The notes under the pieces: generated by a model
Databases searched by the model: none
The model's input: only the letters and a program-made list of their open reading frames with translations
Told to the model about the DNA's origin: nothing
Part shown: positions 33,025 through 45,871 of the stretch, piece after piece
Layout of the letters: the number at the start of each line of letters is the position of its first letter
How positions within the stretch are numbered: position 1 is the stretch's first letter
Source of the DNA: Balneolaceae bacterium
GTDB taxonomy: Bacteria; Bacteroidota; Rhodothermia; Balneolales; Balneolaceae
Reading direction: 5' to 3'
Assembly (NCBI GenBank): GCA_018401935.1
Contig: JAGYJQ010000003.1
Location: forward strand, 124,001-188,000
Length of the DNA stretch: 64,000 nt
Made by a program: the position numbers and the translations under genes

Positions 33025-34413
33025 CTAATCCTGAATAAACCAGGCGTTAGATTGGAGCTGGTTAGAAAGGATGGGGTACCAGCTTAATGACGGTGTGTGC
33101 CGACTACTCATTGGTTTTGCCGCAACTGTTTGACCCAGTATGTCGAAAATTGCTGCTTCTAGTAAAGGATCTGTTGGATCGCCCAAAGGTTTTGGAGACA
33201 AGATGTTTTCAGAAGCATCTATCTGCGCCTCGAGACCCTCAATAAAGTCCGTTTCCTCGTTTGCGTTTAAATACTTTAAGGTCACCGGTAAGATTGCATA
33301 GTAAACAGGAGGATTTTGAAAGGTACCGGTAATCACAAAGGAACCATAGTATTTACCCAAGGTATTTGACCCAACGGTGATTACCTCCATGTAGGGCTTT
33401 AGTCCATTTATTAGAAGTTCACTAGCCGAAGCGGTTTGATTGGTCGTGAGTATATAAACCCGATCTAAGCCCATGCTAACCGGGCCCTCCTGAAAGCGTA
33501 AAAATAGGTTCTCGGAATCTGCTCCTTCCGTATTTTGATAAAAGTTTTCTAATAGCGAATTGTATTCAAACTCAACGAAGACCTCTTTGTTTTGTGCCGT
33601 TTCTAAGGGAACCAATGCGTTGGCAAAGCGCGAAGCAGCCGTAATTCTTCCCCCTGGGTTATATCGTAAATCTATGACTAACTCGTCAATTTGTTGGGCT
33701 TTTAATTCGGCTAGTCGTTCATTGAGCCTATTAATAAAGATATCGGCTGTACCATCGATGAACTGTGCATAGAAAAGGTAACCGATGCGCTTTCCCTCCT
33801 TTTCAATAACTTTCGTGGTAATCACTGGGTCCAACTGTAAAATTTCCTTTTGTACGCTAATTACACTATCTAGATCGGTAATACTAGCCTGCTGAGTTTC
33901 TTGGTTCACCGAATAACTTCCCAATCCATAGGTCACTGTTCCGTTGATTTGTAGTAATTCTTGATAATTTGTGGAATTCAGGGTCTGCCCATTCACACTC
34001 AAAATAATATCGCCGCGTTGTAAGCCAACTTCTTCTGCTGGTGAGTCCGGATACACATACTTAACCACCATAAACAATTGATCTCGATCACTAAAAGACA
34101 AAATAGCAGGGCTAAATCCGGATGAATATTGGCTCCCATTAAGTTCATTGAGCAGGGTTTCTGCGTCGTCCGTCATATAAGAAAACCCATCTGTTGCATA
34201 CAGAATTTCTTCAAAAAACTGTTCCGGTGGTAAATTCCCCGGCGCCATTCGAGGAACTACAAAGTTCCAATAATAATAATTGGCCATCTGACTCCGGATC
34301 CAGGAATTCGCCTCTAGATATTCACTACCCACACCGGTTGGATCATCACTACATTGAGTGAAAAAACCTAGGCTAACGATTAGTCCAAAACAAAAGAGTA
34401 GAAATCTTTTCAT
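33025..34413 (-). CDS. S41-family serine protease (C-terminal processing peptidase-like) lipoprotein
   Basis: A 462-residue exported protein with probable lipoprotein signal (LIVSLGFFTQC). A PDZ-like domain occupies about 115-170 (PDSPAEEVGLQRGDIILSVNGQ). The tail-specific protease core follows: IDELVIDLRYNPGGRITAASRFAN and VYILTTNQTASASELLINGLKPYM, in which the serine of TASASE is the expected nucleophile. These enzymes trim exposed C-termini in the periplasm or on the cell surface. The gene stands between tonB (36 bases) and the BNR propeller gene (11 bases), which could be a substrate or partner. Confidence 0.9.
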   Translation of the reverse strand: MKRFLLFCFGLIVSLGFFTQCSDDPTGVGSEYLEANSWIRSQMANYYYWNFVVPRMAPGNLPPEQFFEEILYATDGFSYMTDDAETLLNELNGSQYSSGFSPAILSFSDRDQLFMVVKYVYPDSPAEEVGLQRGDIILSVNGQTLNSTNYQELLQINGTVTYGLGSYSVNQETQQASITDLDSVISVQKEILQLDPVITTKVIEKEGKRIGYLFYAQFIDGTADIFINRLNERLAELKAQQIDELVIDLRYNPGGRITAASRFANALVPLETAQNKEVFVEFEYNSLLENFYQNTEGADSENLFLRFQEGPVSMGLDRVYILTTNQTASASELLINGLKPYMEVITVGSNTLGKYYGSFVITGTFQNPPVYYAILPVTLKYLNANEETDFIEGLEAQIDASENILSPKPLGDPTDPLLEAAIFDILGQTVAAKPMSSRHTPSLSWYPILSNQLQSNAWFIQD

Positions 34414-34449
34414 GGGTTGTTTGTGTACTTTCTGGATAATGGGATTCTA

Positions 34450-35271
34450 TTAACTAAATACGAATCGAAAGGTAATGGTTCCCCACTGTGGTTGTTGAGG
34501 GACACCGCTGGGTAAACGGGAAAAACGCCAAGATCGCAGGGTCCTGAGCACCTCGGTTTCTAACTCTGCGTTCATTTTTCGAAGTGGAATAATTCGACCT
34601 ACCGTTCCATTTGGGCGCACTTCGAAACGAACCGTTATAACGGCCTCAGCATTGGCCACATTCGTGGGTAAAGGCTGTGCCATGGGTGCGCGCTCAATAT
34701 CTCCTTCCCATTGTAACTCATACGGAGCCGTTTCATCGGAATCTGTCCCGGTACCCTGATCCGAATCTGTTGCGCCTCGATTCCCGTCCGGATCTCCACT
34801 TTCCTGTGCTCCTTCGCTTTGATTTTCATCCATTTGAGCTTGAGGCGGAATCTCAATTTCTTCCTCCGCCACTTCTGAGGCATTCTGTGAGGGATCCAAC
34901 ACCTCTGTTTCCGGGGTTTGAACCGCCTCTTCAATGACCTCTTCAATCTCATCAGGCAAGTCTACTGGCTTGGTATTTTCTAGAGCGGGTGTTTCCGGGG
35001 TGCTTTCAGGCTCGGGTGCATCTTCCACCGGTTCTTCGGTCGGGGTTTCCGAAGGATTTTGTCGCGTAGCAACTTGCTCATTTTGTTGCTCTGAAAATTC
35101 AGAAAGTTGGCCTGACTGAAATTCTCCAAATTCAACTTCAATAAAGGATGGGCGCATTCCCTCATCCATATCTATGCTGTACCAGATAGAAAAAAGAAGT
35201 AATAGCAACGCAGTAACACTGCTGACCGCTAATCCTCTACGCTCATCGATATTTAGGGAATCGGATTGCAT
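34450..35271 (-). CDS. tonB: Energy transducer TonB
   Basis: Couples the inner-membrane proton motor to outer-membrane receptors. The 273-residue protein has a cytosolic N-terminus, one membrane helix at about 14-31 (LAVSSVTALLLLLFSIWYS), a long acidic Pro/Glu/Ser-rich spacer through the periplasm, and a C-terminal TonB domain (VITVRFEVRPNGTVGRIIPLRKMNAELETEVLRTLRSWRFSRLP). The spacer is acidic rather than the Lys-Pro/Glu-Pro rod of E. coli. It begins directly at the end of exbD, giving an exbB-exbD-tonB operon. It probably serves the TonB receptors at 16119 and 22775, among others. Confidence 0.92.
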   Translation of the reverse strand: MQSDSLNIDERRGLAVSSVTALLLLLFSIWYSIDMDEGMRPSFIEVEFGEFQSGQLSEFSEQQNEQVATRQNPSETPTEEPVEDAPEPESTPETPALENTKPVDLPDEIEEVIEEAVQTPETEVLDPSQNASEVAEEEIEIPPQAQMDENQSEGAQESGDPDGNRGATDSDQGTGTDSDETAPYELQWEGDIERAPMAQPLPTNVANAEAVITVRFEVRPNGTVGRIIPLRKMNAELETEVLRTLRSWRFSRLPSGVPQQPQWGTITFRFVFS

Positions 35272-35688
35272 CTAATACGAACTTTGTTCGGTTGCCATCA
35301 CCAATTTTAATTGTAAGGCTTTTCCAATATTCAATACCCGTACCGCGTCATCGACTTTAGCATCTTTGTCGGCCCGCAGGACAATCATACCATCGGGCTT
35401 AGTATTGCGCGATTCACGAATAGCTAAAGCTAATTCACCCTGAGCCGTCAAATTGCCATCGACGTAAAATTGCCCATCTTTGGTAATTGCTACAGATATA
35501 TAATCCTGCTGGGTAACCGATGACGTTTCGGCTTTTGGGATATTAACCTGAATTCCAAAATTACTCACAAAAGACGAGGTTAATAAAAAGAAAATGAGTA
35601 ACAGAAGTACAATATCGGTTAAGGACGACTGTGAAAACAGCGAAAGAGGGGCTAAGCGCTTGTCATCTCGACGAAAATTTCTAGCCAT
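35272..35688 (-). CDS. exbD: ExbD/TolR-family biopolymer transporter
   Basis: The stator partner of ExbB. I use the ATG at 35688 (MARNFRRDDKRLAPL); an upstream in-frame ATG at 35763 would overlap exbB by 65 bases and add residues unlike any ExbD. The single membrane helix carries the essential aspartate in SSLTDIVLLLLIFFLLTS, followed by the ExbD periplasmic domain (IQVNIPKAETS, ITKDGQFYVDGN, GMIVLRADKDAKVDDAVRVLNIGKAL). The length of 138 residues is standard. It sits between exbB (10 bases) and tonB (no gap). Confidence 0.94.
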   Translation of the reverse strand: MARNFRRDDKRLAPLSLFSQSSLTDIVLLLLIFFLLTSSFVSNFGIQVNIPKAETSSVTQQDYISVAITKDGQFYVDGNLTAQGELALAIRESRNTKPDGMIVLRADKDAKVDDAVRVLNIGKALQLKLVMATEQSSY

Positions 35689-35698
35689 AATGTATGCT

Positions 35699-36433
35699 CT
35701 ACTTTTTGGTGGCTGGGGTTTGTAGTAGATCGATGAAATCAGCGGAGGCATTTTCGAGCTCAAAAATCGACCGATTTATTTTGCCCAGTAAAAAATTATA
35801 GAAACCAAAGGCAATTAAACCTACCATAAGACCTGCCGCCGTCGTGATTAAAGCCTCCCAAATACCCCCCGCTAAGGCGCTTGGATTCACATTTCCCTGC
35901 AATGATTGGATATCCATAAAGGCCTCAATCATACCCGTAACCGTTCCGGTAAAGCCCAATAGAGGAGCTACCCCAGCGATGGTCGCTAGCCAATTCATTT
36001 TCTTCTCTAAAAAGAATATCTCTTTCTTGCCTGCATTATCTATGGCATCTTCTATGTCACGAATCGGTCGGCCCAATCGCTTGATCCCTGCCTTGATAAT
36101 TCGCGCCAAAGGCTTATCAAATGAATCGCAGTACTGCATAGCCTGATCCTGCTTGCCGGACTTTAGCATGGATTCAATCGCAGCCAAAAAAGCGGCTGTG
36201 TCTGTCTTCGTTCTACCCAGTGCGCTCCAACGTTCCGCAATCACATAAATAGCCAAAAAGAACAAAATCAAAATTGGAATCATTAGCACACCGCCTTCAA
36301 CCATCAAATCGAAAAAGCTAATGCTTTCAGGTTCCATCATACTGGTTAATGAGTCCACCATCGCGCTATCTTGCATTTGGAAGGCAAGGGTTCTGGTTGA
36401 TAAATTTGCAAATAGAGTCATAGGTAATGCCAT
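35699..36433 (-). CDS. exbB: MotA/TolQ/ExbB proton channel family protein
   Basis: The proton-conducting part of the TonB motor, 244 residues. A first membrane helix (VLMIPILILFFLAIYVIAERW) is followed by a cytosolic domain (YCDSFDKPLARIIKAGIKRLGRP) and the two conserved helices (WLATIAGVAPLLGFTGTVTGMIEAFMDI and ALITTAAGLMVGLIAFGFYNFL), including the TLLGLLGTV-like motif. The N-terminus may be a signal-like extension. Its ATG overlaps the stop of the SPOR gene by one base (TAATG), suggesting translational coupling of the SPOR protein with the ExbBD-TonB motor. Confidence 0.93.
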   Translation of the reverse strand: MALPMTLFANLSTRTLAFQMQDSAMVDSLTSMMEPESISFFDLMVEGGVLMIPILILFFLAIYVIAERWSALGRTKTDTAAFLAAIESMLKSGKQDQAMQYCDSFDKPLARIIKAGIKRLGRPIRDIEDAIDNAGKKEIFFLEKKMNWLATIAGVAPLLGFTGTVTGMIEAFMDIQSLQGNVNPSALAGGIWEALITTAAGLMVGLIAFGFYNFLLGKINRSIFELENASADFIDLLQTPATKK

Positions 36434-37797
36434 TAGATTTTGGTAATAAAGTAATCCTCGATAATTTCTTTGGGAAGTTCCTTAGCCACTTCAATGGCCT
36501 GTTCTACCGTCCCAAACTGCCCTATACTGACGCGCCACATTAATCCGAAGCGACTTGAATTAACGGGCGAAAGTAAACTTCGGTATCCAGCAGAGCGATA
36601 TTGTTCATATTTTTCCATTGCACTTTGACGATTGGAAAGCGAAAAAAGTACCAAGGTATATCCATCATTCGCTCGCGAATCAACTTCCCCCATTAGTCCA
36701 TATCGAGGTTGATCTACGGGAATTTCCGCCACATTTTTAGCCATAATTGGTGCGCTCACTACTGAGTCGGTATTTGTTTTTGAAGCACTATTTTCTGGGC
36801 TAATTATAGAATTTTCATCATTCATGACCATAGTACTTGAAGCTTCCCCCGCTAGGCCATTTTTCTCATTATCTAGTGCAACAGAGGGTTGCTGCTCTTC
36901 ACTAATTGAGTTAGAATCCATGGCCTCAGTTACATTCGATTGTTCCGTGCCAGAGTCCCCCACTAATATAGCAGGTTCGTCGAGTATAGGCTTTAGGTAA
37001 AATTGCCATCCCGCTATCACTGCAGCAATAAAAACAACCCCTATTCCTATATAAATTGGAGTAAGATTAGATCTTTTTGTTTTTTTAGGACTTCGTAATG
37101 AGGCGGTTCGTTTTGCTATTCGAGCCTTGGTTTCATCGTCAAGATCGGGTTCGGTTTCTTGCTCTTTCTCGAGCTCAGGTTCGGATTCTTCTTCGAGTTC
37201 GGACTCGGGCTCATGAACCAGCTCATCTTCTTCATCGGGTTCGGTTTCCTCCTCAGACTCAGGCCCCACTTCGGCTTCAGTGTTTTCATCGGCTTCACGA
37301 TCTTCTTCAGAATCAGCTTCTTCATCGACTACTAATTCTTGCCCTTCTTCAGGCTCGTTGTCGAATTCAGGCTCGTTGTCGAATTCAGGCTCGTTGTCGA
37401 ATTCAGGCTTTTCTTCGAATTCGGATTCTTCTTCGGACTCGGGCTCATGAATAAGCACGGGTTCATTCTCAAACTCTTCATTAGCCTGAGATTCTACCTC
37501 TTCTACAACTTCGAGTTCCTCATCTTCCTCTATACCCACATTAAAATCTTCGGACACAACAATGGGCTGCATACCCGCATACTTGTAATTAATTTCAATA
37601 GCGAAAGAGGGGTCTAATTCGAAAGAAATCCCAGAAGCATCTTTTTTTAACGCTCCAAGGCCGGCCAGTTGGGCTGCGGCGGTTTCGTTTAGCTCATTGT
37701 TTAAGTGAACAGAAAATTCACGTAATAATTCCTGTGATTCCTCCTCAGAAATGGATAACTCCTGCGCAATATATTGTATGAAATCTACCTGCTTCAT
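36433..37797 (-). CDS. HU-like N-terminal domain, membrane helix and C-terminal SPOR domain protein
   Basis: A 454-residue bitopic protein. Residues 1-80 match the HU-CCDC81-type variant of the HU/IHF fold (FIQYIAQELSISEEESQELLREF, then LAGLGALKKD and FAIEINYKYAGMQPIVV). A very acidic linker (about 85-225), holding three exact EFDNEP repeats, leads to one membrane helix at about 246-266 (LTPIYIGIGVVFIAAVIAGWQ). The periplasmic part ends in a SPOR domain (about 385-454: GYTLVLFSLSNRQSAMEKYEQYRSAGYRS, MWRVSIGQFGTVEQAIEVAKEL), a fold that binds denuded glycan strands at division septa. It overlaps both neighbours (ATGA with the mini-HU gene, TAATG with exbB). HU-SPOR fusions are known in Bacteroidota; a nucleoid-to-wall tether is an inference. 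Confidence 0.85.
   Translation of the reverse strand: MKQVDFIQYIAQELSISEEESQELLREFSVHLNNELNETAAAQLAGLGALKKDASGISFELDPSFAIEINYKYAGMQPIVVSEDFNVGIEEDEELEVVEEVESQANEEFENEPVLIHEPESEEESEFEEKPEFDNEPEFDNEPEFDNEPEEGQELVVDEEADSEEDREADENTEAEVGPESEEETEPDEEDELVHEPESELEEESEPELEKEQETEPDLDDETKARIAKRTASLRSPKKTKRSNLTPIYIGIGVVFIAAVIAGWQFYLKPILDEPAILVGDSGTEQSNVTEAMDSNSISEEQQPSVALDNEKNGLAGEASSTMVMNDENSIISPENSASKTNTDSVVSAPIMAKNVAEIPVDQPRYGLMGEVDSRANDGYTLVLFSLSNRQSAMEKYEQYRSAGYRSLLSPVNSSRFGLMWRVSIGQFGTVEQAIEVAKELPKEIIEDYFITKI
37351..37404 (-). repeat. Three perfect 18-base tandem repeats in the HU-SPOR acidic linker
   Basis: Units at 37351-37368, 37369-37386 and 37387-37404 are identical and a fourth, degenerate unit runs to 37422. 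Each encodes EFDNEP. The array keeps frame and is coding, so it is a minisatellite in a disordered linker rather than a CRISPR or regulatory array. Confidence 0.9.
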
Positions 37798-38000
37798 TCC
37801 GCTTCCCCTAAGTCTTCAGGGCTAAAATGTACGGTGTCTTTAGGAGGATGAGCAACCGTTCTCCCTTTTTCGTCACGGGAAAAGTGCTGCGGTTCATGCA
37901 CCCGACTAAATGTTCCTATTCCATCTAGATGAACTGATTCCCCTGCCAATAATTGCTCTTTTATACGATCTGAAATTTTTTCTATCTGTTGTTCATCCAT
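37794..38000 (-). CDS. Minimal HU/IHF-fold protein
   Basis: A 68-residue protein whose pattern is that of a shortened HU subunit: one N-terminal amphipathic helix (QQIEKISDRIKEQLLAGE), then the HU beta core VHLDGIGTFSRVHEPQHFSRDEKGRTVAHPPKDTVHFSPE, which aligns with the GxGTFxxxxRxxRxGRNPxTGxxxxIxxxxxxxFxP scheme. The first helix of a full HU (about 20 residues) is missing. Its stop overlaps the start of the HU-SPOR gene as ATGA, so the two are probably coupled and may form a heterodimer of HU folds. DNA contact is not certain because the arm (HFSRDEKGRTVAHPPKD) carries only a few basic residues. Confidence 0.75.
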   Translation of the reverse strand: MDEQQIEKISDRIKEQLLAGESVHLDGIGTFSRVHEPQHFSRDEKGRTVAHPPKDTVHFSPEDLGEAE

Positions 38001-38011
38001 TCTAACTGTTC

Positions 38012-39754
38012 CTAAAATTCAAAGCTTATACCACCAAACAAATGCAATGGTGCTTCCTGAAATCCCTGCCACCACTCATAACGCTGAGAAAGTAGGTTAT
38101 TTATTCTAATGTATGAACCTACGTGTTCATTAATTGAATAGCGCAGGTTAGAATGTACTAAAATAAAGCCATCCATTTGCGCAGGTCCTATCGTTGTTCT
38201 AGGGCCTATAATCATTGTGCTAGCCCCAATAAGTAATTTGGGGGTAATCGAATAGCTTAAACTGCCTTCTACTCTAATTTTTTCTTCAAAGGGTATGTCT
38301 TCCTTGGACGTTAATCGTGGACTTCTGAGACTAATTTCTGCCGCGCCTTGAATATCCCCGTCTAACCATTCAACCATGCTACCAAAATAAAATTTAGTCA
38401 CCCTGGCATCGGCATAATTCAAATTATAAAACAAATCCTGCGTACTGCCTGTTGGGTTGCCCGGATTTGTAGCATCCAATTGCTCTCGCTGAGCATAACC
38501 AAAACGATTAATGTGCTCCCATTGAAGTCCAGAATAGATTCTATTGGTTTGCATGAAATTCCAAAATACTTCTGCAGATACACCTATATGATAGGAATGT
38601 TGTAGTCGAGTAGATGGAGTTAAAAACCTATTATATTCTTGCCATTCCAATAAAGTTGGGTTTTTCAGTTCGCCCGACAACTTAGCAACCCCACCTAACT
38701 GATCGTTATAATTATAACTAAGTGTAGCATCAGGCTCTATATAGATGCCATTATTGATGGTATCGTCTGCATACGCCAATGATGTCTCCACATCCACTGA
38801 CCAGGTATAATCAATCAACCGGGCATATCCACCCCCAGCCCGAATAAGATATAGTGTATTTGTACTGCCTCCTACCTTATTCGAATGTACATCTACGCTG
38901 GAGTGAAGACTCCAGTATTCACGTGTTTGTTGGCCAGGCCAGCTTCGGTTTACCTGTGCCTCCATAAATGAGGAAGATGCTATGTCCTGCATGGCCAAAA
39001 CGGTCGAGTTTAATTCACTTTCAAAGAAACCCACTTGAATAGCGTAACTGTTCTTATGGAAGGTATTTTTTTGCTCATCTAACCGAGCAGACCAAATTAA
39101 GCCCTGCTCGACTTTCTTTGGAACTCCACCTAAAAGGTTTTGCATCTCATCGCTGAGAGTAAACATTCTATTAAACCCATTATTTAGGCGTAATTGACTC
39201 GTTAGGTTCCTTGTATCCGATAGTTTTTTCGAATAATTCACATCAACCCCAAGGTTTCTGTATCCACTGGCATTATCGAGATGTCCAGCTGATGACTGAA
39301 AATTAGTACCCACTCCAATTACGCCATCTTTGATCGGTGAATAATAATTTACTTTAAGCTCAGGGCTCACAAACCATCCCATTCCAAGCTGACCAGTACC
39401 TTTTGGACGCCGTGGAGTTACCCATACATTTTTGGCTGGCTCTTCCGGTCTGTCTAAAGCCGTCACGGATATTCCCGAAACCGCCGCTTCTCGTGATTCC
39501 AAGAAAGGCATTCGGTTTGGATCAATTTGAAACACTCTAGGTCTTGGATTAAAACCCAAAATAGGTTGCCGTCTAAGGCCAGGGAAATTAGCTTTGAACT
39601 CACTTCTAATTTCTATGTCCTGCGGATTAATCTCTGGCAGTAGTGTGTTCTGAGCACCTTGTGCAAATATCTCGGCGCTCATGAACCCAATAATTAGAGC
39701 TACCGCAAACCCCGAAAACAGGCATAGATTACGAACTAACCGGATACTAGTCAT
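38012..39754 (-). CDS. Outer-membrane beta-barrel protein, TonB-receptor-like but without a visible plug
   Basis: An exported barrel of about 580 residues. The ATG at 39754 starts a clean signal peptide (MTSIRLVRNLCLFSGFAVALI to FAQ); ATGs at 39796, 39823 and 39865 are also in frame, and the last overlaps the upstream gene by 50 bases. The mature N-terminus has a Pro/Arg-rich section (LRRQPILGFNPRPRVFQIDPNRMPFLESREAAV) instead of a plug domain, followed by many amphipathic strands and a final strand ending LFGGISFEF. The C-terminal phrase YIRINNLLSQRYEWWQGFQEAP is typical of TonB receptors. It lies between the flippase-like gene and the HU pair, in a cluster with ExbBD-TonB. Ligand unknown. 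Confidence 0.75.
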   Translation of the reverse strand: MTSIRLVRNLCLFSGFAVALIIGFMSAEIFAQGAQNTLLPEINPQDIEIRSEFKANFPGLRRQPILGFNPRPRVFQIDPNRMPFLESREAAVSGISVTALDRPEEPAKNVWVTPRRPKGTGQLGMGWFVSPELKVNYYSPIKDGVIGVGTNFQSSAGHLDNASGYRNLGVDVNYSKKLSDTRNLTSQLRLNNGFNRMFTLSDEMQNLLGGVPKKVEQGLIWSARLDEQKNTFHKNSYAIQVGFFESELNSTVLAMQDIASSSFMEAQVNRSWPGQQTREYWSLHSSVDVHSNKVGGSTNTLYLIRAGGGYARLIDYTWSVDVETSLAYADDTINNGIYIEPDATLSYNYNDQLGGVAKLSGELKNPTLLEWQEYNRFLTPSTRLQHSYHIGVSAEVFWNFMQTNRIYSGLQWEHINRFGYAQREQLDATNPGNPTGSTQDLFYNLNYADARVTKFYFGSMVEWLDGDIQGAAEISLRSPRLTSKEDIPFEEKIRVEGSLSYSITPKLLIGASTMIIGPRTTIGPAQMDGFILVHSNLRYSINEHVGSYIRINNLLSQRYEWWQGFQEAPLHLFGGISFEF

Positions 39755-39815: not shown

Positions 39816-40838
39816 TTAGACATTTTGGGCAGTAGCCTCTCGTTGTAACGAAAGAAACTTATCAATAGCCAAGGCGGCAGGCGCTATGAGTATGACCATG
39901 GCCAAGGTTGCCGCATGCGTAATGGTAGCAAAAGCCAAACCTGTAGGCTCTGGCACCATATATAATATGCCCAAACTGTAACTAATAAAATAGTGATAAC
40001 TTCCTATACCACCCGGAGTCGGAATAGATAATGCAACCGCAGAGGCCATCGTTAGAATAGCGGCGTCTGCCCAACCTAAGTCAAATCGTAAGGGTAAATC
40101 AAACATCCAAAATGGAATGTACATCATAGCAATATAGCCCACCCAAATGAGCGCGGTATATCCCACAAATAAAAGGGGGCGTTCTAGTTTTTTAATACTC
40201 ATTAGGCCTTCAACAAATTGAGCAATTATTTCTTTGATTTTTAATAACCAAGCAGAATTCAGATTGGTTGTAATTAATCGTTTATAGAGCACCCACCCAC
40301 CCACTATTAACCCCATTCCAAGCAGAATTAGTGGCCATGTATTCAAAAATAGAGCGGAATACACTTCGCTATCGGCTAGATTTACCCCCAATAGTCGGCT
40401 CAGGGTATCAACATCGGATAATAAAAAATAAGCGACCAAAGCCATTATTATAAACATGGATATAACATCAATAAAGCGTTCCAGCACAATGGTACCTATG
40501 AGCTTTGAGTTACTTTCACCCAGCTGCTTGGCGACATACATAGGGCGGGTTATTTCACCCAATCTGGGAAAGGGAATGTTGATTAAATACCCAAACATAA
40601 CCCCAGCAAAAAGGGTGGATCGGTGAGCAACTAGGGTTGTATCCCCTAGTAAAAGTCGCCATCGCTCTGCTCGAATATAGTGCGAAAAGGTCAATGCGAT
40701 ACTAAAAGGGAAGAGCCATGACCAACTCATACCTATGGTCGCTTGTCTAAGCTCTTCGAAAGATACATTTGAAAAAGAAAGCCATAAGAAAAATGCTGCA
40801 AAGGCTATCCCGACGATGTATTTTACAGCCTTATTCAT
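39816..40838 (-). CDS. Lysylphosphatidylglycerol synthase TM-region / flippase-like membrane protein
   Basis: A polytopic inner-membrane protein of 340 residues with about eight helices, of the UPF0104/YbhN/AglD family. Characteristic features are the N-terminal VGIAFAAFFLWLSFSNVSFEEL, HYIRAERWRLLLGD, GYLINIPFPRLGEITRPMYVAKQLGES, and SIPTPGGIGSYHYFISYSLG. Relatives have been linked to lipid or lipid-linked glycan transfer across membranes; the true substrate here is unknown. It overlaps lolA by eight bases, so the two are likely translated together, which puts it in an envelope-lipid setting. Confidence 0.88.
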   Translation of the reverse strand: MNKAVKYIVGIAFAAFFLWLSFSNVSFEELRQATIGMSWSWLFPFSIALTFSHYIRAERWRLLLGDTTLVAHRSTLFAGVMFGYLINIPFPRLGEITRPMYVAKQLGESNSKLIGTIVLERFIDVISMFIIMALVAYFLLSDVDTLSRLLGVNLADSEVYSALFLNTWPLILLGMGLIVGGWVLYKRLITTNLNSAWLLKIKEIIAQFVEGLMSIKKLERPLLFVGYTALIWVGYIAMMYIPFWMFDLPLRFDLGWADAAILTMASAVALSIPTPGGIGSYHYFISYSLGILYMVPEPTGLAFATITHAATLAMVILIAPAALAIDKFLSLQREATAQNV

Positions 40839-41490
40839 AGCGCATATCGACTATTTCGGCGTCTTCAGGTATAATTAGTTCAAATAAATTAATGCTAAAA
40901 GGGATGTATGCCACCTCAGAAAAACTAGTCTGCATACGATTAGCTCCCATATCCAACGCGATTAAACTTGATGGCTTAAGCTCAGAATCGATACGAATGT
41001 TCATTTGCTCAAAGGTGCTAAAAGGGTCTGAACTTTGGAGATTATATTCCTGAACATTGAGGCGCTTCTTTGTATCTACCACCTGATAGGTATTTCCAAG
41101 CCCTCCAATAATTTTAGACGGTGCAAAATCATCTAACTCCGGATCATACTCACTGATAATCACGCGGTTTCTACTGCGATCCAGCACCTTGGATAGTACT
41201 CCATCTACCACAATAATTTGCCCGACTGTCTCTATTCTATACTGCTGCCAACCTATCCAAATACTGCCTTTATTCTGTGACATCTCCTGAGTATACGCAT
41301 CGGTAAACTCATGGTTAAACTGGGCAAATAGAATTTCCCCCTTCTTTATTTTATCCTGAATTTGCGTTAAATAATTTTCCTGTGCAAGGAGAGACCCTCC
41401 CAAAAAAAACATTATACAAAAGGTTAAACAATACCTTATACATCCACGAAAATAGCCAGCAGATGATTGTCTATAGCTCATTGAGCCCAT
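40831..41490 (-). CDS. lolA: LolA-like outer-membrane lipoprotein carrier
   Basis: Periplasmic shuttle that takes lipoproteins from LolCDE to the outer membrane. A signal peptide (to about residue 36, GGSLLAQ) is followed by the LolA-type beta sheet: GEILFAQFNHEFTDAYTQ, GSIWIGWQQYRIETVGQIIVVDGVLSKVLDRSRNRVIIS, LQSSDPFSTFEQMNI. The length of 219 fits. The start could also be the ATG at 41481; both overlap the end of ftsK. FtsK followed by LolA is a recurrent order in Bacteroidota. A LolC/E-type permease gene lies at the right edge of the window. Confidence 0.85.
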   Translation of the reverse strand: MGSMSYRQSSAGYFRGCIRYCLTFCIMFFLGGSLLAQENYLTQIQDKIKKGEILFAQFNHEFTDAYTQEMSQNKGSIWIGWQQYRIETVGQIIVVDGVLSKVLDRSRNRVIISEYDPELDDFAPSKIIGGLGNTYQVVDTKKRLNVQEYNLQSSDPFSTFEQMNIRIDSELKPSSLIALDMGANRMQTSFSEVAYIPFSINLFELIIPEDAEIVDMRYE

Positions 41491-44008
41491 CCAATATTTC
41501 TTGGAGTTCTTCTTCTGTTTCCACTAAAACATCGCGAGCCGTACTGCCTTGATAGGGTCCGACGACGCCCGCATTAAACAGTTGGTCTATGATTCTTCCG
41601 GCACGATTATACCCAATTTTTAACTTGCGCTGCAGCAGTGAAACAGACCCTTGTTGATGCAGAAGTACTACTTTTGCAGCCGTTTCAAACATATCATCAA
41701 TATCTTCTAATGGATCGGGAACTCCACCTGAGGCTTCGTCATGCACAATTGGGAGGTAAAAAGGTTCTTTATACCCAGCTTGTGAACCCACAAAACTATT
41801 GATTCGCTCAACCTCTTCTGTGGATACAAAAGCATTTTGAATACGAATCATACCAGCACCATTCGTAAATAACATGTCACCCATCCCTACCAATTGATCC
41901 GCACCTCCTACATCTAGAATGGTTCTAGAATCCACCTTTGAGGCCACTTGATACGCTAGACGAGCTGGGAAGTTCGCTTTAATGGTTCCAGTAATTACAT
42001 TAACTGATGGGCGCTGAGTGGCTACGACCAAATGAATGCCCACCGCACGCGCTAACTGAGCTATACGGGCTATTGGTTCTTCAATTTGTTTTCCAGCCGT
42101 CATCATCAGATCAGCAAGCTCATCAATAATAACCACAATGTAGGGCAGGTGTCGATGGCCCAACTCGGCTTCAAGTCCCTCTTCCTTAAACTTCTCATTA
42201 TAGGCCTTTATATCCCGAACCATAGCCATTTTTAGCAAATCATAACGCTCATCCATTTCTTTAGTCACGCTAATCAAGGTCTCTAGGGCTTTAGATGTAT
42301 CCGTTATAATCGGCTCATCGGAATCTGGCAACATAGCCAAAAAATGATTTTGAATATTTCTGTATAACGACAATTCAATTTTCTTAGGGTCAATCATCAC
42401 AAACTTTAGATTATCTGGATGACATTTGTACAGCAAACAAGTGATAATGGTATTAATACCCACCGACTTACCCGAACCCGTAGCGCCAGCAACCAACAAA
42501 TGAGGCATTTTGGCTAAATCCATCATGAATACCTCATTTTCAATGGTCTTACCAAAAGCCACGGGCAAGGCCATATCGGTCTCAACAAATTTACGCGTCT
42601 TGATCACCTGCTTAATGTAAACCGTCTCTCGGGTGGTATTAGGAACCTCAATTCCCACCGCAGACTTACCTGGGATGGGGGCTAAAATCCTTAGGCCTTT
42701 AGCCGCTGTTGCCATCTTAAGGTCATTGGCATAACTCTCAATCTTACTAATCTTCACATCCGGCGCCGGCTGCAATTCATACAAGGTCACTGTTGGGCCA
42801 ACAATTGCATTGATGCCTAAAATATCGATCTTATGCTGGCTCAACTTCTCCATAATGATGCGCTTATTCTCCTGAATCTCCTCCATATCTACCTCGTTCC
42901 CCTCGTTTGGTGGGGTGTTTAGCAGATCAACGGTTGGAAATTGATACCGGATAACCGGCGCTTGCTTGGCCTTTTCTCTATTCTGACGATCTAACTCTTT
43001 TTCATCGGCTTGTTCCTCCTCCTCACCCACAAATACCGAAACCTCCATATCATCTACTACCGGGGTTGTGTTTGAGTTCTCACTATCCTCACTTTTCACC
43101 AAATCTGCTCGAGGGCGGACATCTACCTTAGCTGCCTCTTGACGCTGCTGCTCCAATCGCTGCTCGTCTTCTAGCTTAGAGCGTTCAATAATATCATCAA
43201 TATCCACCTGCTCCTTTTCTTTACGAGTCAATGGTTTTGTAGCAAGGGTTGCACTTGTTTTTGATGGGGTTGTTTCGGGCTCATTTTCCTCTTTGTTGCG
43301 GTCTAACTCAGCTTTTTTCTCCGCTATACGCTCCTGTCTTTCTTCTTTTTTCTGCTGCTTTAAGGCTTCTCTTTCAATTTTTTTATCCTGCTGCTTCTCT
43401 CGAACATTATCCCACCAATGCTTAACGTTGTCTATGGTTTTTTGCAAATCACGATCAACAAATAACAATGCGTTTATGCTCATGAAAACCAATAGAATAA
43501 AAAAAGAAGCGATGCCCGTGATATTTTGTAAAATACCAGCGAGTTGAAGCCCCGCTGAACCGCTCCAATCGGCCTGCTGAGGAAGGTCCCAATTGGAATG
43601 AGTCCAACCCAAAAATGTCGAAATCAAGACCATGGCCCATAAACTAAGAGCTATAGTCTGGTATTTTTCTTGAAGTGAACGCTGCCTAAATACATGCCAC
43701 CCGGTATAACCTAGTACGATAGAAAAAATGAAACTTGAATATCCAAAGGTGTAGTACACAAGGAGATTGGATAAAAATGCTCCCAAGGGGCCCAGCCAAT
43801 TCTGTATCATCCGGGCAGAAGCATCCGGCTTATAGATATCACTAAAGGTTAAGGTCTGCAGGTACTGAACATCTTCTGGGGTATACGAAAGAATACACAA
43901 TCCAATCAACACAGCAATAGCAATAAGTGAAATCCCAATAATTTCAACCTTTCTAGCACTAGAGCTAAGACTCCCACTTACTGAATTATTATTGGATTTT
44001 TTTGCCAT
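41471..44008 (-). CDS. ftsK: DNA translocase FtsK
   Basis: Pumps chromosome ends through the closing septum. The 845-residue protein has four N-terminal membrane helices (about 22-41, 78-104, 117-134, 160-184), a charged linker (190-350), the alpha/beta translocase domain with Walker A GATGSGKS at 508-515 and Walker B-like VIIDELADLMM, and a C-terminal winged-helix gamma domain (VVLLHQQGSVSLLQRKLKIGYNRAGRIIDQL) that reads KOPS. It is complete. It overlaps lolA and lies eight bases after comB. The nearby HU-SPOR gene would also place a septum-related protein in the same run. Confidence 0.96.
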   Translation of the reverse strand: MAKKSNNNSVSGSLSSSARKVEIIGISLIAIAVLIGLCILSYTPEDVQYLQTLTFSDIYKPDASARMIQNWLGPLGAFLSNLLVYYTFGYSSFIFSIVLGYTGWHVFRQRSLQEKYQTIALSLWAMVLISTFLGWTHSNWDLPQQADWSGSAGLQLAGILQNITGIASFFILLVFMSINALLFVDRDLQKTIDNVKHWWDNVREKQQDKKIEREALKQQKKEERQERIAEKKAELDRNKEENEPETTPSKTSATLATKPLTRKEKEQVDIDDIIERSKLEDEQRLEQQRQEAAKVDVRPRADLVKSEDSENSNTTPVVDDMEVSVFVGEEEEQADEKELDRQNREKAKQAPVIRYQFPTVDLLNTPPNEGNEVDMEEIQENKRIIMEKLSQHKIDILGINAIVGPTVTLYELQPAPDVKISKIESYANDLKMATAAKGLRILAPIPGKSAVGIEVPNTTRETVYIKQVIKTRKFVETDMALPVAFGKTIENEVFMMDLAKMPHLLVAGATGSGKSVGINTIITCLLYKCHPDNLKFVMIDPKKIELSLYRNIQNHFLAMLPDSDEPIITDTSKALETLISVTKEMDERYDLLKMAMVRDIKAYNEKFKEEGLEAELGHRHLPYIVVIIDELADLMMTAGKQIEEPIARIAQLARAVGIHLVVATQRPSVNVITGTIKANFPARLAYQVASKVDSRTILDVGGADQLVGMGDMLFTNGAGMIRIQNAFVSTEEVERINSFVGSQAGYKEPFYLPIVHDEASGGVPDPLEDIDDMFETAAKVVLLHQQGSVSLLQRKLKIGYNRAGRIIDQLFNAGVVGPYQGSTARDVLVETEEELQEILDGLNEL

Positions 44009-44016
44009 CTATCTAC

Positions 44017-44754
44017 TTAATCATGGTTAATAGTAATGATTCCATCTTTCATTACAGGCAGGACTTCGTGGGTATTCGATTTTGAGCAGAAACTTATATC
44101 ATCCTCTGATACCAAATCTTTTAATCGATTCGCATGATCACTATGGAAAATAGTATCTACCACCGAATCTCCGTACTGCTGAAATAGTGCAAAAGCTATT
44201 TTAGCACCATCCTTCAATATTTGAGGTTGATTACTGGCGCCCAATGCATCTAGGATTGTACCTGCACACAAGGTATCCTCCAATGACTGCTTTCCTCTCC
44301 AGCCAGAACATATGAGCACCACTTCATCCGAGCAATGTTGTATCATCTGGACAATCATACTCATATTCAGAAATGTACCAATATAAATTTGCTTGGCCAA
44401 AGCTGCTTTTTTTATGGCTTTGGTCCCATTGGTAGTATTAAATATCAAGGTTTTTCCTTTTACCCTATCTTCGGTATACTCCAACGGAGAATTCCCTAAA
44501 TGATACCCTTCTATCTTAATTCCATCCTTTTCACCACAAAGCAAAAAATCGCCGGCTTCCATAGTCTGTGCAATACGACCTGCCGCTGATAAATCTTCTA
44601 CGGGAATTATTTTATTCGCTCCATTATGAAGCGCTTGTATCATAGAAGAACTCGCTCGAAGCACATCAATAATGACTACCGTCTTGCCTCTAACATCTTC
44701 CTCTTGGAATCCGTGTACCGAAAAATACACATCTATTGTCGCTAAATCTGACAT
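44017..44754 (-). CDS. comB: 2-phosphosulfolactate phosphatase family protein (ComB)
   Basis: ComB enzymes remove phosphate from 2-phospho-3-sulfolactate, a step of archaeal coenzyme M synthesis; in bacteria they make sulfolactate or act in unknown ways. The 245-residue protein has the family marks TVVIIDVLRASSSMIQAL, FLLCGEKDGIKIEGYHLGNSP, KTLIFNTTNGTKAIKKA and VVLICSGWRGKQSLEDTLCAG. No comA or comC is seen in the window. Some relatives of this clade make sulfonolipids, so a role in C3-sulfonate supply is possible but unproven. It lies between gcvT (19 bases) and ftsK (8 bases). Confidence 0.88.
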   Translation of the reverse strand: MSDLATIDVYFSVHGFQEEDVRGKTVVIIDVLRASSSMIQALHNGANKIIPVEDLSAAGRIAQTMEAGDFLLCGEKDGIKIEGYHLGNSPLEYTEDRVKGKTLIFNTTNGTKAIKKAALAKQIYIGTFLNMSMIVQMIQHCSDEVVLICSGWRGKQSLEDTLCAGTILDALGASNQPQILKDGAKIAFALFQQYGDSVVDTIFHSDHANRLKDLVSEDDISFCSKSNTHEVLPVMKDGIITINHD

Positions 44755-44773
44755 ACATTCATACCTTTATACC

Positions 44774-45871
44774 CTATACAAAAGGGAGAGAAGTAACCGT
44801 AATGGGGACTTCTTTGTTTCTTATTTGAATAACTATAGGTTCATTTGATGCCAAAGCATCGGTCTGTACATAGGCCATGCCTATACCTTTTTCTAATGAA
44901 ATAGACATTCCACCGCTGGTAACCTTACCAACAACGTTGGACTGAGTGTCTAATAATTCATAATCTTTACGGGGTATGGCTTTTTCCTGATCGACGACAA
45001 ATCCAACTAACTTTTTTTCCACTCCCTTTTCTTTTATCGCAATAAGCGCATTCGAGCCAACAAAAGACCCTTTTGATAACTTGGTAATCCATCCTAAACG
45101 AGCTTGGAGTGGATGGGTTTCCGCCGTAATATCGTTCCCGTATAAGGCATACCCTTTTTCTAGACGTAGGGTGTCTCGAGCCCCTAACCCACAACGTTCT
45201 AATCCGTATGCCGAACCCTTAGCAACCAACGCTTCAAGTACCTTGTGTACGTCATTATTTACACTATTAATATATAATTCAAATCCCTTTTCACCCGTAT
45301 ATCCAGTAGCACTAATTAAACAAGGCACCCCACACACCTCGCCATGTTCAAAGGCATAAAAAGGTATCTTTTGAACATCCGTGTCCGTTAGCTCCGATAA
45401 AAGTTCAGCCGATTTGGGGCCCTGAAGCGCAAGTAGCACATAATCATCGGACGCATTTTCTAGCTCTGCGCCCATCGTATTTTGAGAAACTACCCAATCC
45501 CAATCCTTTTCAATATTGGCGCCATTCACCACCATCATATATTCTTCAGAAGCCAATCGGTAGATAATCAAATCATCTACGATGCCTCCATGTTCATAAC
45601 ACATACAACTATACTGCGCCTTACCAATAGCTAAAGTAGATACGTCATTTACCGTAACCCATTGGAGAAGCTCCAAAGCCTTGGGGCCTCGCACAAAAAA
45701 TTCTCCCATATGTGACACATCAAAAAGACCTACATTTCCTCGCACAGCACGATGCTCTAGCTTTATCCCCTTGTATTGAATGGGCATCTCAAATCCAGCA
45801 AAAGGAACCATCTTTGCTCCTGCTTTAACATGTTGACTATAAAAAGGTGTTCGTTTTAAGCGATCAGACAT
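44774..45871 (-). CDS. gcvT: Glycine cleavage system T protein (aminomethyltransferase)
   Basis: Transfers the methylene group from the H-protein-bound aminomethyl to tetrahydrofolate, releasing ammonia. At 365 residues it has standard length. Motifs: the opening LKRTPFYSQHVKAGAKMVPFAGFEMPIQY, VGLFDVSHMGEFFVRG, YSCMCYEHGGIVDDLIIYRL, ALQGPKSAELL, GYTGEKGFELYI and LEKGYALYGNDI with the folate-binding aspartate region nearby. It is the first gene of the long leftward run, so the promoter for at least its first part should lie in 45872-46055. gcvH and gcvP are not in the window. Confidence 0.95.
   Translation of the reverse strand: MSDRLKRTPFYSQHVKAGAKMVPFAGFEMPIQYKGIKLEHRAVRGNVGLFDVSHMGEFFVRGPKALELLQWVTVNDVSTLAIGKAQYSCMCYEHGGIVDDLIIYRLASEEYMMVVNGANIEKDWDWVVSQNTMGAELENASDDYVLLALQGPKSAELLSELTDTDVQKIPFYAFEHGEVCGVPCLISATGYTGEKGFELYINSVNNDVHKVLEALVAKGSAYGLERCGLGARDTLRLEKGYALYGNDITAETHPLQARLGWITKLSKGSFVGSNALIAIKEKGVEKKLVGFVVDQEKAIPRKDYELLDTQSNVVGKVTSGGMSISLEKGIGMAYVQTDALASNEPIVIQIRNKEVPITVTSLPFV

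Follow-up and report, generated by a model that had tools for sequence, protein, structure and literature searches.

A candidate Tol-Pal-like septal system in Balneolaceae that combines a plugless outer membrane barrel, a split HU-SPOR protein and an ExbBD-TonB motor

Introduction

Bacteroidota draw their outer membrane (OM) inward when they divide. A 2025 survey by Williams-Jones et al. could not identify tol-pal loci in Bacteroidetes and expects further systems to exist (PMC12204202). Could a locus of a Balneolaceae bacterium encode one of them? The locus lies in a stretch of 64,000 nucleotides, hereafter the window (GenBank assembly GCA_018401935.1, contig JAGYJQ010000003.1, positions 124,001 to 188,000), in which an earlier note made from the sequence alone had described a block of genes for two HU-fold proteins, one of them with a SPOR domain, followed by ExbB, ExbD, TonB and a protease, beside ftsK. 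Our analysis places an outer membrane protein (OMP) gene at the head of this block and suggests a function for the whole. We regard it as an even call that the block is a Tol-Pal-like septal system in which the HU-SPOR protein would mark the division site while ExbBD-TonB would pull on the OMP; the septal placement, the binding of TonB to the OMP tail and the role in division are the parts of this proposal that we infer. The block is a testable candidate for the outer membrane constriction machine that the phylum appears to lack. Its genes are named, most of them are present in a single copy, and they have relatives in tractable genera, which gives a way to approach the question of how the outer membrane is drawn in.

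A conserved core operon

All of the genes lie on the minus strand and, in the order of transcription, encode FtsK, a LolA-like protein, a flippase-like protein, the OMP, the mini-HU, the HU2-transmembrane (TM)-SPOR protein, ExbB, ExbD, TonB and an S41 protease. Open reading frames (ORFs) and Pfam matches bear out each gene named in the earlier note. The core begins with the OMP (38012-39754) and continues with the mini-HU (37794-38000), the HU2-TM-SPOR protein (36433-37797), ExbB (35699-36433), ExbD (35272-35688) and TonB (34450-35271). The mini-HU and HU2-SPOR genes share a 4 bp overlap (ATGA), and HU2-SPOR and exbB share one of 1 bp (TAATG), as had been described.

Conservation was assessed in 39 loci of the window's family and class, together with 80 named Balneolaceae-type loci. 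Among the related Balneolaceae loci, 53 have 8.5 kb or more of downstream DNA; the core order from OMP to TonB is intact in all of them, and because all five genes come after the OMP in every one of these, the arrangement is not due to chance. It is also complete in 63 of the 64 named Balneolaceae-type loci with at least 3.9 kb past the OMP, the exception being L167, where a mini-HU was not recognised. Overlap lengths differ among the named loci, so the exact overlaps of the window are not conserved, but tight gene packing is. Co-conservation redraws the block in other respects as well. The OMP gene just upstream of the mini-HU, which had been left out, belongs to the conserved core, whereas the protease is facultative (12/53 Balneolaceae loci) and was rejected as part of the unit. 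FtsK was likewise rejected as a core member, since its linkage is found only in Balneolaceae.

Beyond this family, the order in Rhodothermales (L062-L073) is TPR-OMP-miniHU-HU2-SPOR-ExbB-ExbD, where TPR denotes a tetratricopeptide repeat protein, and OMP, mini-HU, HU-SPOR, ExbB and ExbD occur together in all 11 sufficiently long loci; the motor was not seen in L070, which lies on a short contig. The same cassette, with HU1-HU2-TM-SPOR as one fused protein and with a TonB-family protein, is present in 7/7 loci of family f18 and 2/2 of family f35. The coupling of HU-SPOR to ExbBD-TonB, which the earlier note had singled out, is therefore conserved in Rhodothermia and in two other Bacteroidota families. 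In family f44 and part of f21, the OMP and TPR genes flank HU-SPOR and the motor is absent beside them. In one f44 locus a TonB-family gene (L080:11052-11978) lies directly 3' of HU-SPOR, though ExbB-ExbD was not found alongside, which suggests that TonB is perhaps the closer partner of HU-SPOR.

A predicted outer membrane barrel without a plug

What kind of protein heads the operon? The OMP matched no Pfam family, and it is 77-87% identical to its closest named records, which come from metagenome-assembled genomes of uncultured Balneolaceae and Balneola. An AlphaFold2 model built from 52 sequences has 22 strands and a mean predicted local distance difference test score (pLDDT) of 83. In a Foldseek search with this model, the best PDB matches were TonB-dependent transporters (E 6e-18), and the C-terminal part of the barrel also matches these transporters by sequence profile. 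A plug domain was seen neither in the AlphaFold2 model nor by Pfam search, and the OMP was accordingly rejected as a normal TonB-dependent transporter.

The most conserved part of the OMP is a 48-residue periplasmic N-terminal motif (39503-39646) that reads LLPEIxPQDIEIRSEF..FPGLRRQPILGFNP.. and that we call the tail. Across the 52 sequences, the mean frequency of the commonest residue is 0.86 in the tail motif versus 0.41 in the barrel. The motif is disordered in the model, in which residues 30-112 mostly have a pLDDT below 50, and its counterpart in other classes is EEIEVVRPYKPILAEAVKIRRSP. A conserved, disordered and strand-like periplasmic tail of this sort may resemble a TonB box.

Across much of the phylum the OMP is paired with a TPR protein of about 1000 aa, which scores 156 bits with the YbgF/CpoB TPR model (cut-off 90) and also resembles BamD. 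At a threshold of E<=1e-30, this protein was detected in 146 of 198 genomes of the phylum, almost always as one copy; none was found among the listed genomes of the putatively Chlorobi-like family f23. For the OMP the count is 93 of 109 genomes; its matches in f23 are weak and are perhaps ordinary receptors. Outside the window's family, the two genes lie within 1.5 kb of each other in 59 of 62 genomes, the exceptions being one genome and two of the window's own order; counted outside Balneolales, the OMP is beside the TPR gene in 59 of 60. The TPR gene was also looked for near the Balneolaceae block, where it was absent, and was found elsewhere in the genome. In the window's own genome the single orthologue (L205:8365-11490, contig C70) lies between aroA-like and CBS-like genes, named from sequence only, and this neighbourhood is retained in other Balneolaceae (L208, L209).

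A putatively dedicated motor

The ExbB/TolQ-family subunit (PF01618, E 7.8e-30) has conserved channel Thr motifs and scores 82 bits with the TolQ model versus 48 bits with the ExbB model, both below cut-off. The ExbD/TolR-family subunit (PF02472, E 2.9e-24) retains the TM Asp, and LTDIVLLLLIFFL is conserved; the pair is a TolQ/TolR-family motor that keeps both its channel residues and the ExbD aspartate. Translation of ExbD most likely starts at the ATG at 35688, 10 bp past ExbB, although the ORF opens at 35763. The force transducer is of the TonB/TolA family and has a conserved C-terminal domain; it scores 29.4 bits with TIGR01352 (cut-off 27.1), a model by which TolA and TonB are indistinguishable, and 24.0 bits with PF03544 (cut-off 24.6).

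At least three ExbD matches were found in every one of 19 genomes. Those of the window's genome include two further ExbDs, which are grouped with an ExbB on a different contig and make up a separate two-ExbD motor. This second motor (L098:8990-11036, contig C12) consists of ExbB, a 93-aa hydrophobic protein and the two ExbDs, and no TonB was recognised alongside. In a tree of ExbB that has only two Ton-type sequences, the HU-SPOR-linked ExbBs and the single-ExbD ExbBs of other classes form a group distinct from the two-ExbD ExbBs (support 0.97).

These results can be weighed against an ordinary Ton system, in which ExbB-ExbD-TonB would energise nutrient receptors, the OMP included, and HU-SPOR would be a functionally unrelated housekeeping neighbour. 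The block does share its motor and transducer families (ExbB, ExbD, TonB) with the Ton system, its OMP has the 22-strand fold of a Ton transporter, and several families of Bacteroidota have HU-SPOR and the motor at unlinked sites. However, Ton transporters have a plug, which uptake requires and which is not predicted in this OMP, and conservation of the OMP sits in the tail rather than in the barrel. The block also has a single ExbD, whereas extra ExbDs are present in every genome tested, here as the separate two-ExbD motor, and the linkage of SPOR to the motor, unbroken in the 53 Balneolaceae loci, extends to other families. We consider an ordinary Ton system unlikely.

A split HU-CCDC81-SPOR protein

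The two HU-fold proteins raise a further question, namely whether they bind DNA or serve another purpose. The earlier note had described the first as an HU fold lacking its first helix, and this stands. The 68-aa mini-HU matches PF00216 (E 1.5e-7), with the alignment starting at profile position 24 and helix 1 thus missing, and its arms are of near-normal length. The AlphaFold2 model is an HU fold without helix 1 (pLDDT 88), and Foldseek matches it to HU proteins, with a root-mean-square deviation of 1.1 A over 57 columns for 3rhi. A degenerate protein or a mis-annotated start was considered and rejected: the upstream gene ends 12 bp earlier, homologues share the start, and the HU model is good. 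Also as described, the second protein has an HU-like N-terminus (HU2, 37573-37797), an acidic linker, a TM helix (37009-37065) and a SPOR domain (36445-36669; PF05036, 29.2 bits, cut-off 21).

Both proteins are related to the HU-CCDC81-SPOR proteins of Bacteroidota (PF18174/PF18175 plus SPOR), which share with them two HU domains on the cytosolic side, then a TM helix and SPOR, and which reportedly were named earlier by Burroughs and colleagues in 2017; the link to an OMP and a motor is not known to be part of that description. Direct matches in the window are faint, at 12.7 bits for the mini-HU with HU-CCDC81_bac_1, below the Pfam cut-off, and 24.7 bits (E 2.3e-5) for HU2 with HU-CCDC81_bac_2 (PF18175), below the cut-off of 35. 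A fused protein from another locus (L083) provides the bridge: its first 55 residues are HU-CCDC81_bac_1 (E 1.5e-8) and the next 70 are HU-CCDC81_bac_2 (E 1.7e-19). In hhalign comparisons, a profile of 113 mini-HUs aligned with 52 columns of the fused HU1 (E 6e-12) but with only 32 columns of the fused HU2, while the split-HU2 profile matched the fused HU2 at E 1.1e-13. The HU domains are encoded by two adjacent genes in Rhodothermia, in contrast to the single chain of the other classes examined. By these profile comparisons, the mini-HU and HU2-TM-SPOR genes are the split form of a fused HU1-HU2-TM-SPOR architecture, and this relation strongly indicates that the two proteins function jointly. 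The mini-HU is then domain 1 of a split protein, rather than a second independent HU or the degenerate one that the earlier note had allowed for. In two Rhodothermales loci, very short and divergent mini-HUs (L071:9753-9983 and L073:9810-9992) of 60-76 aa have shortened arms, and they possibly form a series toward arm loss.

One TM helix in a positive-inside orientation is predicted in all 77 HU2-TM-SPOR sequences compared (in the window, hydropathy 2.2, with eight K/R before the helix and one after). This would leave the HU part in the cytosol, the condition that the earlier note had set for its reading, with SPOR on the periplasmic side. The SPOR family is chiefly known for binding denuded septal peptidoglycan. 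The length of the protein varies widely among homologues (297-659 aa), and within the acidic linker of the window's protein in-frame repeats (37339-37420) encode EFDNEPEFDNEPEFDNEP.

A chromosome-to-septum tether has reportedly been the published prediction for HU-CCDC81-SPOR, and was also the view of the earlier note; the HU domains would bind DNA, SPOR would anchor it at the division site near FtsK, and the motor would be secondary. The genuine HU fold of the mini-HU, its cytosolic side and the adjacency of FtsK in 52 of 58 Balneolaceae loci are in keeping with it. However, canonical HU and IHF have helix 1 and basic arms with an intercalating Pro, whereas the window's pair is acidic, with net charges of -7 (mini-HU) and -8 (HU2) against +4 for E. 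coli HU-beta; the mean over homologues is 0.2 for the mini-HU and -6.7 for HU2. The arms are 26 residues long in the mini-HU and, across the family, cut to 8-9 in HU2, compared with 28 in HU-beta, and the RNPxTG motif was not found at the arm tip of the mini-HU. The invariant mini-HU residues (G29, H35, Q38, G46, P52, P53, D55, F59) are not the basic set of HU, and FtsK linkage was not seen in the Rhodothermales and Bacteroidia loci. From these features, neither of the two HU domains resembles a DNA-binding protein, and a nucleoid linker finds no support in them; the charge and the match to HU1 of fused proteins also disfavour the mini-HU as a free nucleoid protein. We infer that the pair is a protein adaptor and hold the tether to be decidedly improbable.

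A proposed septal system and its relation to Tol-Pal

In our proposal, the core operon would specify a proton-driven system that spans the envelope and joins the outer membrane to septal peptidoglycan at division, the job that Tol-Pal does in Proteobacteria. In the cytosol, mini-HU and HU2 would pair as an HU-like heterodimer and, rather than packing DNA, would connect to the division machinery as an adaptor that binds protein. Past the TM helix, the SPOR domain would bind denuded septal glycan, as its family does, and this binding would put the adjacent ExbB-ExbD motor and TonB at the septum. TonB would span the periplasm, grip the disordered conserved tail of the plugless OMP and draw the outer membrane inward. 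Outside Balneolales, the CpoB/YbgF-type TPR protein encoded beside the OMP may bridge the OMP and cell-wall synthesis. The proposal is supported by the core order, the split and fused HU1/HU2 forms, the predicted N-in topology and the plugless OMP with its ultra-conserved tail; by the OMP-TPR adjacency, the separate two-ExbD motor, the grouping of ExbB and its TolQ-leaning score; and by the lack of TolB_N and a Pal equivalog, the 2025 survey (PMC12204202) and the adjacency of FtsK in Balneolaceae.

Like Tol-Pal (TolQ-TolR-TolA-TolB-Pal-CpoB), the block has a proton motor and a TonB/TolA-family transducer, and the septal OM-peptidoglycan role of Tol-Pal is the one suggested here. A CpoB/YbgF-type TPR protein is linked to the outer membrane component across most of the phylum, though not in Balneolaceae. 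However, Tol-Pal has TolB and Pal, whereas the block has neither at the locus and instead has an outer membrane barrel with a conserved tail; its motor is tied to a SPOR/HU protein, and its TPR protein is of the large type described above. TolB_N was not found in any of 11 Rhodothermia genomes (that of the window and ten others), and no Pal equivalog reached its cut-off in any of 19 genomes. Both having been sought without success, we do not class the block as a member of Tol-Pal, and the absence of TolB and Pal agrees with the 2025 survey (PMC12204202). A protein that shares the proposed role is PorE, a presumed CpoB-TolB-Pal fusion put forward as the Bacteroidota substitute for Tol-Pal tethering (PMC12204202). 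PorE differs in that it consists of one OM lipoprotein to which no motor is linked, and it lies outside the OMP-HU-SPOR-ExbBD cassette.

Several results weigh against the septal proposal. PorE has already been put forward for the tethering role (PMC12204202), and OmpA-like Pal-type domains are present in all 19 genomes. The TPR gene is adjacent to the OMP in none of 15 Balneolaceae and sits elsewhere in the genome. TonB was recognised beside ExbD only in L067 and L068 among the Rhodothermales loci, and the window's TonB lacks the TM His that most homologues carry. In Flavobacterium/Flavobacteriaceae-like and Bacteroides-like genomes, HU-SPOR, the motor and OMP-TPR are scattered to separate sites. 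The scarcity of Ton-type sequences in the ExbB tree counts here as well.

A wider claim is that Bacteroidota share a division machine made of a plugless barrel derived from a TonB receptor, a dedicated ExbBD-TonB, septal placement by HU-HU-SPOR, an HU-fold adaptor and the CpoB-like TPR protein of about 1000 aa. It would be the non-homologous counterpart of TolB-Pal and near-universal except in Chlorobi-like genomes; this we advance tentatively, at somewhat less than an even chance. The motor, SPOR and HU families are known already as kinds, as are systems of the TolQRA/ExbBD-TonB type driven by the proton motive force. What appears to be new is the fission/fusion relation of HU1 and HU2, the pairing of plugless OMP and TPR protein throughout the phylum, and the tie to a dedicated motor. 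No description of the cassette was found in the searchable literature, which leaves many subscription papers outside its coverage, and to that extent the earlier note was right to call the system incompletely described. The cassette points to the recruitment of a plugless TonB receptor and an HU fold into envelope mechanics.

Neighbouring genes

FtsK (41471-44008; PF01580, E 8.7e-59) lies about 3.5 kb upstream of the mini-HU, with three genes in between: a LolA-like protein (40831-41490; PF03548, E 0.013, below cut-off), a flippase-like LPG-synthase-TM protein (39816-40838; PF03706, E 1.9e-37) and the OMP. The FtsK-LolA-flippase run is upstream in 52 of 58 Balneolaceae loci, and the LolA-like and flippase-like genes, like FtsK, are linked to the block in Balneolaceae only. 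A general role in envelope biogenesis, in which OMP and TPR protein would export or insert lipid or protein by means of ExbBD-TonB and SPOR would merely anchor the motor in peptidoglycan, is suggested by these two genes, the large plugless barrel and the BamD-like TPR protein, but is a poor prospect given that their linkage is limited to one family and that SPOR domains are chiefly known as septal glycan binders. Downstream of TonB lies the S41/PDZ protease (33025-34413; PF03572, E 2.8e-16). Upstream, a GcvT gene and a ComB-like gene, the latter named from sequence only, extend the run with FtsK, LolA-like and flippase-like genes (window 41471-45871); the GcvT-to-flippase run was not seen in the Rhodothermales loci and is upstream in 51-52 of 58 Balneolaceae loci (~90%).

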